DNA from: Paraflavitalea pollutisoli
GTDB lineage: Bacteria > Bacteroidota > Bacteroidia > Chitinophagales > Chitinophagaceae
Reading direction: 5' to 3'
Assembly: GCF_029360705.1 (NCBI RefSeq)
Contig: NZ_JARKMX010000003.1
Location: forward strand, 1-64,000
DNA: 64,000 nt
In this document: piece by piece, positions 12,316 through 55,809 of the stretch
Position numbering within the stretch: the stretch's first letter is position 1
Layout: every line of letters begins with the position of its first letter
Made by a program: the position numbers and the translations under genes
Notes under the pieces: model-generated
What the model was told of the DNA's origin: nothing
What the model saw: the letters and a program-made list of their open reading frames with translations, nothing else
Databases searched by the model: none

Positions 12316-12407
12316 ACGTTTTCAGCGTAGATACAGCGTCTCTTATAGAGGTGCTGTATCTACGCTGTATGGACGCTGTATGGGCGCTCTATCTACGCTG
12401 TATCCTC
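12316..12407. repeat. 11-nt repeat array with inverted arm, locus 1
   Basis: Five tandem 11-nt units with consensus GCTGTATNNNC run from 12353 to 12407 (one unit has GCTCTAT). To the left, two units in the opposite orientation (GTAGATACAGC at 12327-12337 and a weaker ACGTTTTCAGC at 12316-12326) mirror them across a 15-nt centre containing CTCT-TAT-AGAG. The inner arms form a long hairpin (AGCGTAGATACAGC with GCTGTATCTACGCT, 12324-12337 and 12353-12366). The 405-bp gap between the SET and DUF1573 genes holds nothing else except the terminator. Confidence 0.85.
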
Positions 12408-12470
12408 TATAATCGCATGATTATCAATAGCACGCTGCGAGCCTTTCGGAAGCAGTAGAGGCAGGAGCAA

Positions 12471-52666: not shown

Positions 52667-54043
52667 TCAGCGGTTGCCCAGCAACTGGTTGTCGTCAATA
52701 AATTGCAAGATCGTTTTCGTGGCACCTGCCTTCGATTGAACATAATCGCCTGCCTGTTGGCAGGCTTTTTTATATCCATCCGGATCGTTGATGAACTGAT
52801 CCAGCATCTTCTCCAGTTCGAGGGCTGTATCGATGGGAAATCCTCCTCCCTGTTCTACCAGCTCAGCTGCTTCTATGTACTTTTCATATACCGGTCCAAA
52901 CACCACGGGTTTGTGGTACACGGCTGCTTCCAGCACATTGTGTACACCGTCGTTGCCAAAGCCACCGCCTACATAAGTAATGGTGGCATATTTGTACAGG
53001 CGCGACAGCATGCCGATGTTGTCGATGATGAGTGTATTGGTAACCTGCTGCTCACGGCTTACCGTACCCGGTACCCGCTTTTGCAATACTGAATAGCGGA
53101 TGGTATGCTTGAATAATTTTTCGATCTCCTTCAGGTGCGACTCATGTATTTCGTGGGGCGCGATGATGAAGCGCATCTCCGGGTGTGTATTGGCATAGTG
53201 ATCCAGTTCTTCCTCGTCTTCGGGCCAGGTGCTGCCGGCGACCACCGTCGGGTGCGAGCTGCAGAATGCCTCAATGGCGGGAATGGGGGTGAATTTGTGC
53301 AGGATATCAGCCACCCGGTCAAAGCGGGTATCGCCATTGACGGTCACGGTCGTATTGAATCCGATGCGGGCCAGTAATTCGCGGGAGTCGGGTGTTTGTA
53401 CAAACAGGTGCGAAAAGCTCTTCAGCATCTTGCGGTGCAAGCCGCCGTACCACTTGAAAAACGGTTGATCGGGGCGGAAGATGCCAGACACGAGCAGGGT
53501 AGGGATCTGCCGTTTATGCAGGTTGGTCAGGTAGTGATACCAATACTCATATTTCACCCAAACGACCAGGTCGGGTTTTACGATGTTGATGAAACGGCGT
53601 GCATTGGAGCGGGAGTCCATCGGCAGGTAAAAGATATGGTCGGCCCCTTCATAGTTCTTTCTTACCTCATACCCCGACGGAGAGAAAAAAGTGAGCAGGA
53701 TGCGGCAACCGGGATGCTGGCTGCGCAGGGCTTCGATCACCGGCCGTCCCTGTTCAAACTCGCCGAGGGAGGCACAGTGCATCCAAATGAGTTTGGGAAG
53801 TGTGGTAGTATTGGTGGCACTGTCTGCCGTGGCCTGCTGGGCGGGGGCACCAAAAGGTCGCCGGCTTGCCGGGTTGCGCCGGTCGTCGAAGGCTGCCACC
53901 AATTGGTCAAACACGTCTTTCCTTCCGGCTATCCAGGCTTTTGCTTTCGGGTTCCACAGTGCTGCCAGGCGTATGCCCAGCAGATAAAGGCGGCAGAATA
54001 AGTTGTAAAATAACAGGTGCACAGTTTCTTCAATTAGCTGCAA
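52667..54043 (-). CDS. kdtA: 3-deoxy-D-manno-octulosonic acid (Kdo) transferase
   Basis: Transfers Kdo from CMP-Kdo to lipid A precursor at the inner face of the cytoplasmic membrane, the first step of LPS core synthesis. A membrane-associated N-terminal helix (LFYNLFCRLYLLGIRLAALW) leads into IWMHCASLGEFEQGRPVIEA (catalytic Glu region), ILLTFFSPSGYEVRKNY, and KYEYWYHYLTNLHKRQIPTLLVSG. The C-domain has VVAGSTWPEDEE, IIAPHEIHESH, YVGGGFGNDGVHNVLEAAVY and KPVVFGPVYEK. At 458 aa it carries a short Thr/Asn-rich insert (about 65-85) compared with E. coli WaaA (425 aa). Confidence 0.95.
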   Translation of the reverse strand: MQLIEETVHLLFYNLFCRLYLLGIRLAALWNPKAKAWIAGRKDVFDQLVAAFDDRRNPASRRPFGAPAQQATADSATNTTTLPKLIWMHCASLGEFEQGRPVIEALRSQHPGCRILLTFFSPSGYEVRKNYEGADHIFYLPMDSRSNARRFINIVKPDLVVWVKYEYWYHYLTNLHKRQIPTLLVSGIFRPDQPFFKWYGGLHRKMLKSFSHLFVQTPDSRELLARIGFNTTVTVNGDTRFDRVADILHKFTPIPAIEAFCSSHPTVVAGSTWPEDEEELDHYANTHPEMRFIIAPHEIHESHLKEIEKLFKHTIRYSVLQKRVPGTVSREQQVTNTLIIDNIGMLSRLYKYATITYVGGGFGNDGVHNVLEAAVYHKPVVFGPVYEKYIEAAELVEQGGGFPIDTALELEKMLDQFINDPDGYKKACQQAGDYVQSKAGATKTILQFIDDNQLLGNR

Positions 54044-54274
54044 AAGTCGGGAAAACTACCAAAAATTGATGGCGCAACCCCGGCAAAGTTTGCTGAATAG
54101 AGGATTACTAAATTGATTTTCAGCGCATAGGATAATTGGGCCGTAAACAGGCCAGCATTCGGCTGGCCCGTGAATATGCCACTAACAAGCTGTTAGGTAA
54201 TCTTTTATAGGCTATTTGTAGTTGGTGGCGCCTCGATTCCGCCTATCTGCAACCTCTCTTCCTTCGGTCCTGGT

Positions 54275-54373
54275 AGGGTTATCCTAGGGACATCTCAGGG
54301 TATTGCCAGGGTAAAAACCCTAGGATAACCCTAGGATAACCCTAGGATGACCCTGGGATGACCCTGGGATGGA
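54275..54373. repeat. 11-nt repeat array with orientation switch, locus 2
   Basis: Nine contiguous 11-nt units cover 99 bp. The first four begin AGGG (AGGGTTATCCT, then three looser copies AGGGACATCTC, AGGGTATTGCC, AGGGTAAAAAC). The next five read CCTAGGATAAC twice, CCTAGGATGAC, CCTGGGATGAC and CCTGGGATGGA. The first unit is the reverse complement of AGGATAACCCT, so the two halves are inverted relative to each other. Period and layout match locus 1, but the sequence does not. Confidence 0.85.
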
Positions 54374-54636
54374 GGGTGGTAAAGAGTAGGTAGAAGCCGG
54401 TTTCAATAGGCATACTCGGCCTTGGTGTTAAACAGATATGGATAATATTGAATATCTGCGTGTGGGCAGTCTGAAACTGTTGCTGCAAGCGGATTGCACA
54501 CCAATTGCGGGCAATTGGGTAAAATCTGCACAGTTTTTGAGTTTTCGGAACGTATTGTTACGTGAAGGCATCGAAAATCTCCGGATTTCATTGTTAACTG
54601 TACGATACGCCCATTGCACATACCAGTTTTTTGTGG

Positions 54637-54644
54637 TAGGTTTG
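54637..54644 (+). promoter_or_regulatory. -7 promoter element of the polysaccharide operon
   Basis: TAGGTTTG matches TAnnTTTG exactly, with a TTG 20 nt upstream (54614-54616) as the -33 partner, and 28 nt to the ATG of the DegT gene. Confidence 0.68.
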
Positions 54645-54672
54645 TGCCCGTTTTAAAACGAAAACGTTGAGT

Positions 54673-55809
54673 ATGCGGCCGATACAGATGGTAGATTTGA
54701 AACAGCAATATGCTAAGATTAAGAAAGATGTAGATGCAGGTATTCAGGAAGTATTGGATAGTGCAGGATTTATAAATGGAAAGGCTGTTGCAGATTTTAC
54801 GGCTGCTCTTACGAAATACCTCGGCGTAAAACACGTTATACCTTGCGCCAATGGAACAGACGCCCTTCAGATTGCCATGATGGCGCTGAATTTGCAACCG
54901 GGCGACGAAGTGATTACACCCTCGTTCACTTATATAGCCACTGTTGAAGTGGTAGCCTTGCTGAAGTTGAAACCCGTGTTTGTGGAGGTTGATCCCAAAA
55001 CGTTCTGTATCGATCCAGTTGCCATAGAAAAAGCGATCACGCCTAAAACCAAGGCGATCGTTCCGGTACACCTGTATGGACAGAGTGCCGATATGGAAGC
55101 CATCATGGACATTGCCCGCTGGCACAACCTGTATGTGATTGAAGATACGGCGCAGGCCATCGGCGGATCGATTAAGTTCAAAGATGGTTCGGTGAAAAAG
55201 GCTGGTACGATCGGTACGATCGGTGCTACTTCCTTCTTCCCGTCGAAGAACCTGGGTTGTTATGGCGATGGTGGTGCAATATTCACCGATGATGATGCGT
55301 TAGCCAGCCAGATGAAAATGATTGCCAATCATGGTCAGAGTAAGAGATATTACCATGACGTGGTTGGTTGCAATAGCCGCCTTGATTCTATCCAGGCAGC
55401 AGTGCTGAACGTCAAATTACCATTTCTGGACAGCTATATCGCTGCGCGCCGGGCTGCGGCAGATCATTACGATCAGGCATTTGCCAATCATCCAAAGATC
55501 ACCACGCCCCTTCGTGCTGCCTATTGCGACCACGTATTTCACCAGTATACCCTGTTGTTGGAAGGTGTAGACCGCGATGCCCTGCATCAGTATCTCGCAG
55601 AGAAGGGAATTCCATCAATGATTTATTATCCAGTACCCGCCCATCGTCAACAGATGTTCGAGGCTTTCGGCGGTTCTTCCTATGTGCTGGAAACTACCGA
55701 TTGGTTGACCGAAAGAGTGATCTCGCTGCCCATGCATACGGAGCTGGAAGCAGACCAACTCGAATTCATCACCAGCAATGTATTGGAATTTATAAACAAA
55801 CAATCATAA
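54673..55809 (+). CDS. DegT/DnrJ/EryC1/StrS-family aminotransferase
   Basis: A 378-residue PLP-dependent sugar aminotransferase acting on a nucleotide-linked ketosugar. MRPIQMVDLKQQYAKIKKDV is a typical start; the upstream TTG at 54667 is ignored. NGTDALQIAMMALNLQPGDE, PSFTYIATVEVVALLKLKPV, PVHLYGQSADMEAI and IEDTAQAIGG follow. The PLP lysine is in SFFPSKNLGCYGDGGAI, and HQYTLLL and MIYYPVPAHRQQMF are C-terminal marks. It resembles the WbpE/FdtB-like groups that make amino sugars for O-antigen. The product cannot be fixed; UDP-2-amino-3-keto uronate chemistry is possible given the neighbouring UDP-HexNAc dehydrogenase. Confidence 0.93.
   Translation: MRPIQMVDLKQQYAKIKKDVDAGIQEVLDSAGFINGKAVADFTAALTKYLGVKHVIPCANGTDALQIAMMALNLQPGDEVITPSFTYIATVEVVALLKLKPVFVEVDPKTFCIDPVAIEKAITPKTKAIVPVHLYGQSADMEAIMDIARWHNLYVIEDTAQAIGGSIKFKDGSVKKAGTIGTIGATSFFPSKNLGCYGDGGAIFTDDDALASQMKMIANHGQSKRYYHDVVGCNSRLDSIQAAVLNVKLPFLDSYIAARRAAADHYDQAFANHPKITTPLRAAYCDHVFHQYTLLLEGVDRDALHQYLAEKGIPSMIYYPVPAHRQQMFEAFGGSSYVLETTDWLTERVISLPMHTELEADQLEFITSNVLEFINKQS

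Follow-up and report, generated by a model that had tools for sequence, protein, structure and literature searches.

The row of nine 11-nt units at positions 54275–54373 of the window (the whole stretch of 64,000 nucleotides of Paraflavitalea pollutisoli DNA analyzed here) belongs to an intergenic repeat of approximately 190 bp. In the reading that we favor, although tentatively, it is the core of a dispersed non-coding repeat within a clade-specific class of 11-nt elements, which would enter gaps by module insertion, become homogenized and inherit their period. Dispersal, gain or loss of whole modules, concerted evolution, a constant period and sequence turnover at fixed gaps were observed in the comparisons described below. 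Sequence is the usual means of recognizing bacterial non-coding repeats. In these arrays, species have period and position in common but differ in sequence, and a search by sequence would take each array as unique. No description of 11-nt arrays in Chitinophagaceae was found among open-licence papers.

Structure of the array and its neighborhood

The nine units lie in a single unbroken register, four reversed and then five forward. As read from the sequence, the reversed units start with AGGG at 54275, 54286, 54297 and 54308, and the forward units start with CCTAGGAT or CCTGGGAT at 54319, 54330, 54341, 54352 and 54363; the register runs on through the orientation switch, all nine starts being exactly 11 nt apart. 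TRF run on the window reported 54317–54371 with a period of 11 and 95% matches. The lag-11 score of the array was 31/33, with a maximum of 21 in 20,000 mononucleotide shuffles of the segment, and no stretch of the window reached 21 in the lag-10 control. The lag score and the TRF result together indicate that the array is not due to chance, and the nine back-to-back units and their change of orientation described in the initial annotation were confirmed.

The right half consists of five near-perfect ACCCTRGGATR units, and the left half holds AGGG every 11 nt and is otherwise loose. Positions 54257–54304 and 54314–54361 form an imperfect inverted repeat (48 nt, 75% complementarity). On this basis we distinguish a less regular left arm of four reverse units (54275–54311, minus strand), a T/A-rich palindrome centre (54312–54316), the spacing of which is kept in alignments with other copies, and a right arm of five forward units, ACCCTAGGATA twice, ACCCTAGGATG once and ACCCTGGGATG twice (54317–54371, plus strand), which is the best-conserved part of the element across genomes.

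The gap that contains the array is bordered on the left by waaA, encoding a KDO transferase (52667–54043, minus strand; Pfam PF04413, E 7e-48), and on the right by a gene for a DegT/DnrJ/EryC1-type aminotransferase (54667–55809, plus strand; Pfam PF01041, E 1e-115) that opens a surface-sugar operon. Ahead of this operon, TAGGTTTG (54637–54644, plus strand), the -7 box of a promoter of the TAnnTTTG type of Bacteroidota, is conserved in an alignment of five species and begins 264 bp past 54373, in agreement with the distance of about 265 bp given initially. The window contains one other period-11 array, which is also real according to TRF and the lag score: that of family B (12339–12412, plus strand, unit GCTGTATCTAC), with a hairpin at its left end (approximately 12319–12371) and further dispersed copies elsewhere in the genome.

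Family A is a dispersed intergenic repeat

This genome (8.76 Mb, 16 contigs) contains 8 copies of family A, the element around the nine units. From the extent of mutual likeness among these copies, the whole element was placed at 54221–54411 (plus strand): counted from where the last unit ends, per-position conservation reaches background at approximately 150 nt on the upstream side and 40 nt on the downstream side, and the BLAST extent of the copies is approximately 54237–54411 in window coordinates. A position-specific order of unit variants is common to the copies, as are the flanks beyond the array, and the copies fold into long imperfect hairpins with a conserved centre spacing. Their outer ends are roughly symmetric (ACCTcTC...GaGAGGT), with flanks too diverged for a target-site duplication to be read, and no excised form of family A was seen. 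The genes next to the copies are unrelated to each other (waaA/aminotransferase, a KDO8P-synthase-type gene [kdsA], gatB, sucA, a PIG-L/bshB1-like gene, a PcrB-type gene and others; the names gatB, sucA and bshB1 come from reading the protein sequences, with profile support for some only). The tie to the polysaccharide operon that was initially drawn is therefore incidental.

Family A was present in 4 of the 4 same-genus genomes searched, and its strict pattern was absent from all 36 genomes tested from other genera. When 60 members of the family from outside the genus were searched with a profile, two of them gave weaker relatives, and in a named collection family A occurred in Niastella, Paraflavitalea, Flavihumibacter, one Chitinophaga and one Bacteroidota bin. 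The comparison loci in other genomes were picked by family A patterns and are uninformative on other families. A match in an Omnitrophica bin comprised two units only and did not have the architecture of the element. Viral contigs searched for phage carriage contained neither the family A nor the family C pattern.

The period of 11 nt is common to many unit families

In 1.6 Mb of the genome, a lag scan detected 21 period-11 arrays, and 31 at a slightly laxer cut-off. The same scan with a 33-nt window gave 0–5 arrays at the other periods from 5 to 21, with 22 as a harmonic. The 31 arrays, found in a fifth of the genome, sort into 13 unit families. Extrapolation to the genome gives roughly 170 arrays, a rough figure because the sampled stretches were partly chosen for known copies. 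Among 707 intergenic gaps with gene calls, 23 held a period-11 array, and the arrays were almost confined to the longer gaps (21 of 123 gaps of more than 400 bp, approximately 17%). Several gaps combine arrays of 2 or more 11-nt families in the space of a few hundred bases (C15:2754382–2755032, C13:98956–99250, C10:94468–94741 and C1:994526–994819). Similarity among the unit families slightly exceeds that of shuffled units (P 0.005 for nearest neighbors, 0.07 for all pairs), a weak excess that is compatible with common descent and far from proof of it.

An inverted partner within 90 nt accompanies only 11 of the 31 arrays. This indicates that the orientation switch is specific to some families and that the period is the common feature, and an early impression that most arrays are hairpins was abandoned on these counts. 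The proposal in the initial annotation of a class of elements with a fixed period and differing units is thus strongly supported, both by the 31 arrays in 13 families, which a scan for other arrays did bring to light, and by the arrays of different units in orthologous gaps; the internal orientation switch that it ascribed to the class stands for some families and not for the class as a whole.

Outside this genome, a same-genus relative (G002) had 4 period-11 arrays in 0.2 Mb, and three genomes of other genera (G076, G009 and G023) had none at the cut-off used for G002; an intergenic scan at a laxer cut-off found one in G023. A lesser excess of period-8 arrays was seen in gaps of this genome (10 arrays, as against 23 of period 11 at an equal cut-off, and 6 at the harmonic 16, counted in stretches of C11, C13, C10 and C15). 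In G076, from another Chitinophagaceae genus, 200 kb (C1:1000001–1200000) contained 37–52 tandem arrays of 7 nt instead of 11 nt. Which repeat period is preferred seems to vary between lineages.

Some orthologous gaps retain the period and replace the unit

Five gaps that hold family A here (waaA, kdsA, sucA, gatB and bshB1) were compared with those of four relatives, G001 to G004. The waaA gap of both G002 and G003 contains an inverted array of unit GTAGATAAGCC; that of G001 contains repeats of CTTACTATTCC, and that of G004 is free of arrays. In the kdsA gap the unit is GTAGATAAGCC in G002, GCATAGATACA in G004 and GGACCTTATCC in G001, and G003 has only a degenerate family B-like remnant. All four relatives have an array in the sucA gap, with units TTACAGAGAAC in G004, the related TACAGAGAACC type in G002, CTATAGAGCAC in G003 and GTTTACTTGCG in G001; the arrays of G004 and G003 lie near the same flank, TACCCTACCCAACCATAC, and most G003 units carry an A-to-C change. 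When these three gaps were scored uniformly in the four relatives, 10 of the 12 reached 25–29/33 at lag 11, and the other lags tested reached at most 19. This is far above the expectation from the base rate of approximately 17% in gaps of more than 400 bp, for three gaps that were chosen for having an array here. Retention of the spacing with loss of the sequence is what this pattern suggests.

The other two gaps behave differently in length. The gatB gap measures 570 bp here; in the relatives it has no array and measures 67–109 bp (G001, G003 and G004) or 198 bp (G002). The bshB1 gap, 469 bp here, is likewise array-free in the relatives, at 45–54 bp (G001, G002 and G004) or 200 bp (G003). Because the gaps of these relatives are short and array-free, the copies here look like insertions. 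The gap in which family B lies in the window contains a family B array in G004, another, weaker 11-nt array in G001, and no array in G002 (67 bp) or G003 (102 bp). Altogether, these comparisons indicate that a gap either holds an array-bearing module or, usually, is entirely without the extra length. Neither of the outcomes that the initial annotation had set against its own proposal, a genome without other arrays and empty sites in relatives with only random slippage of one short motif, was seen.

Copies of family A evolve in concert

To compare copies within and between species we used the right arm. Differences per 44 nt amounted to 4.8 within a genome, 6.8 between orthologs of different species and 6.8 between other copies of different species (0 of 5,000 in a label permutation, a test that takes copies as exchangeable). 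Orthology without a signal in the right arms is the signature of concerted evolution or of recent recopying. In close Niastella relatives family A is found at the same place, and in the same orientation in the pairs aligned, and the right arm has changed less than the surrounding gap sequence, a hint of selection as opposed to persistence alone. In two more distant pairs of orthologous gaps (L036/L047 and L039/L044) the regular family A arm is on opposite sides, which may reflect inversion, re-insertion or homogenization of the arms.

The course of events that we favor would be the following. Repeats of 11-nt units would occupy a minority of the long intergenic gaps, and a repeat would enter a gap within an array-carrying module of roughly 300 to 500 bp, as estimated from the empty sites. 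Since the element has no gene, it would presumably move in trans via a factor encoded elsewhere. Its units would be homogenized inside the array and between copies of the same genome, probably by recombination or by copying and slippage, and the unit sequence would drift or be replaced; changes would occur in whole-unit steps and the 11-nt period would be passed on. Old arrays in long-lived gaps may in this way retain their place and period and lose their sequence. Descent from one ancestral repeat would account for the common period, and selection for a spacing of one helical turn may have helped. Persistence in a gap despite unalignable surroundings needs continual homogenization or selection.

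The element is like MITEs in being short and non-coding, in its inverted halves, in the empty orthologous sites that relatives have at gatB and bshB1 (G001–G004), and in its presumed movement in trans. It is unlike them in that no terminal inverted repeat with a target-site duplication was demonstrated and no parental transposon was noticed among the profile-model matches, and sequence turnover at a constant period is a trait of the 11-nt arrays.

Alternative explanations for the common period

A possible but unlikely alternative is that the arrays would be operators, with head-to-tail sites one helical turn apart that may be read, for example, by a response regulator of the OmpR/PhoB type; spacing would be selected and the sequence would follow the protein. 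PHO boxes are built of 11-nt direct repeat units (PMC4415409), which shows that protein reading of a one-turn spacing exists, and the arrays resemble PHO boxes and PhoP operators in having head-to-tail 11-nt units in phase, sometimes several, in intergenic gaps. The greater conservation of the right arm relative to its gap also fits this explanation, as do the lack of arm covariation, expected for rows of sites rather than for a stem, the position of the array upstream of the promoter at kdsA and gatB, and the TAnnTTTG-like motifs near family A, approximately 31 of which point away from the element and approximately 10 in the opposite direction. A promoter within the element was also considered, and none was found; the promoter-like motifs are outside it. 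However, PHO boxes have one regulator and one unit type, whereas the arrays come in many unit types, with inverted halves, flanking sequence in common between copies, sites that are empty in relatives (at gatB and bshB1) and functionally unrelated neighbors. Furthermore, each of the unit families, at least 13 in a fifth of the genome, would call for a regulator of its own, and the unit differs within the genus at one and the same gap, upstream of the housekeeping genes kdsA, sucA and waaA. Finally, 10 of 41 family A copies in several genomes lie between convergent genes, a count based, as are all gene orientations here, on crude longest-ORF calls. For family A, the same count goes against a strict avoidance of convergent gaps, which the finding of 0 arrays in 132 convergent gaps had suggested.

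We consider it rather doubtful that a clade-wide machinery, either an array-writing enzyme or a reader of one-turn spacing, keeps the 11-nt spacing while the sequence is replaced at fixed gaps. If spacing is selected, the arrays would be a DNA architecture without sequence conservation near housekeeping promoters; if it is not, they would be a clear natural bacterial case of satellite-like concerted evolution. Bacterial genomes in general favor a periodicity of approximately 11 bp (PMC3372288), which has been tied to supercoiling. The arrays have this length scale in common with the 10–11-bp periodicity of curvature and supercoiling, which is a diffuse phasing of A-tracts, unlike the discrete, near-exact arrays described here.

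It is improbable that the palindrome acts as a structured nucleic acid, an RNA hairpin or a DNA cruciform in which 11 nt would correspond to a turn of the A-form. The long imperfect hairpin folds with their conserved centre spacing and a recurrent loop like CTCTATTAAGAG in families B and C agree with such a role. However, when arms were swapped among 48 family A copies, own arms paired no better than swapped ones (P 0.27 with GU pairs, 0.11 strict), so that selection for pairing at individual loci is not apparent, and RNAalifold on family A proposed 5 pairs with almost no covariation. A search of the window and 20 loci against Rfam returned no family at the gathering score; the sub-threshold hairpin matches were mostly to microRNA models. 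Moreover, the kdsA array is upstream of the likely transcription start, and most of the period-11 arrays have no inverted partner. Given that the arms show no covariation and that such a partner accompanies just 11 of the 31 arrays, the general feature is the 11-nt spacing and not the hairpin.

Similarly improbable is local slippage as the only process, that is, tandem duplication in place under a bias of the clade's polymerase or repair toward 11-nt steps. There are known cases of intergenic tandem repeats that are specific to a lineage and keep to one period (TAACTGA heptamers; PMC4679880), and G076, from the same family, prefers heptamers. Nevertheless, the family A unit is present at 8 unlinked loci with a position-specific order of variants, and the copies share flanks outside the array. 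Local slippage is thus largely refuted for family A and survives as a source of new unit families. The heptamer repeats (TAACTGA in Beggiatoaceae, cyanobacteria and some Bacteroidetes, and the cyanobacterial STRRs) resemble the arrays in being lineage-specific, intergenic and short, with one period, mostly few units per array and many arrays per genome, all of which is found here at period 11. They differ in having one main unit and a period of 7, as opposed to a period of 11 in at least 13 families, often inverted; one or few unit sequences were not found here, and unit replacement between species at the same gap belongs to the 11-nt arrays.

Linked genes and the comparison with REPINs

The linked-gene check proposed in the initial annotation found no linked transposase or reverse transcriptase. 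The genome has two Y1 transposase genes (C15:3228153 and C1:41966), and neither is adjoined by a family A copy or a family B array, as judged from coordinates and, for the first, from reading the sequence around it. This first, RAYT-like gene (L104, C15:3228153–3228485) adjoins an apparent 3-dehydroquinate synthase gene and has short palindromes of its own and no 11-nt array. No transposase was found beside family A at any copy examined, and no half-element beside a transposase was noticed among the profile-model matches. A link with reverse transcriptases was also rejected: RVT_1 has 1–3 matches per same-genus genome, none near family A in this genome, and occurs in G009 and G076, where no period-11 array was seen in 0.2 Mb.

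REPINs and BIMEs, as in P. fluorescens and E. coli, are like the arrays in being dispersed, intergenic, palindromic and homogenized, with several families per gap; the arrays are unlike them in having unequal arms, low copy number and 11-nt tandem units, without a recognized REP motif or an adjacent RAYT. The inverted motifs of REPINs form a hairpin, and the family A arms fold as one too, yet they are 11-nt arrays, unequally conserved and without covariation. That family A consists of REPIN-like elements mobilized by a REP-associated tyrosine transposase (RAYT) is the least probable explanation, because, despite the intergenic, palindromic, dispersed and within-genome homogenized copies and the two Y1 genes, the better-scoring RAYT-like gene has no flanking family A array, there are approximately 8 copies and not hundreds, the unit is an 11-nt tandem and not a pair of REP motifs, and the arms are unequally conserved.

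A longer dispersed element with 11-nt arrays inside

Apart from families A and B, the genome contains a longer dispersed element, family G, with 11-nt arrays inside it and an almost invariant 3' domain, GAAGTGTAATGAAAATAGCACAACTTTTCTAAATCAATCACTTACACC. Its upstream part comprises a palindrome, TGTCATGACA, and after it a promoter of the Bacteroidota type (TTGG...TACATTTGC). Sites were noted at C11:334074, C13:99198, C10:48937, C10:232507 and C10:169600, and further ones at C10:424400, C10:460250, C11:433500 and C11:228650. Family G is possibly a multicopy small RNA gene.
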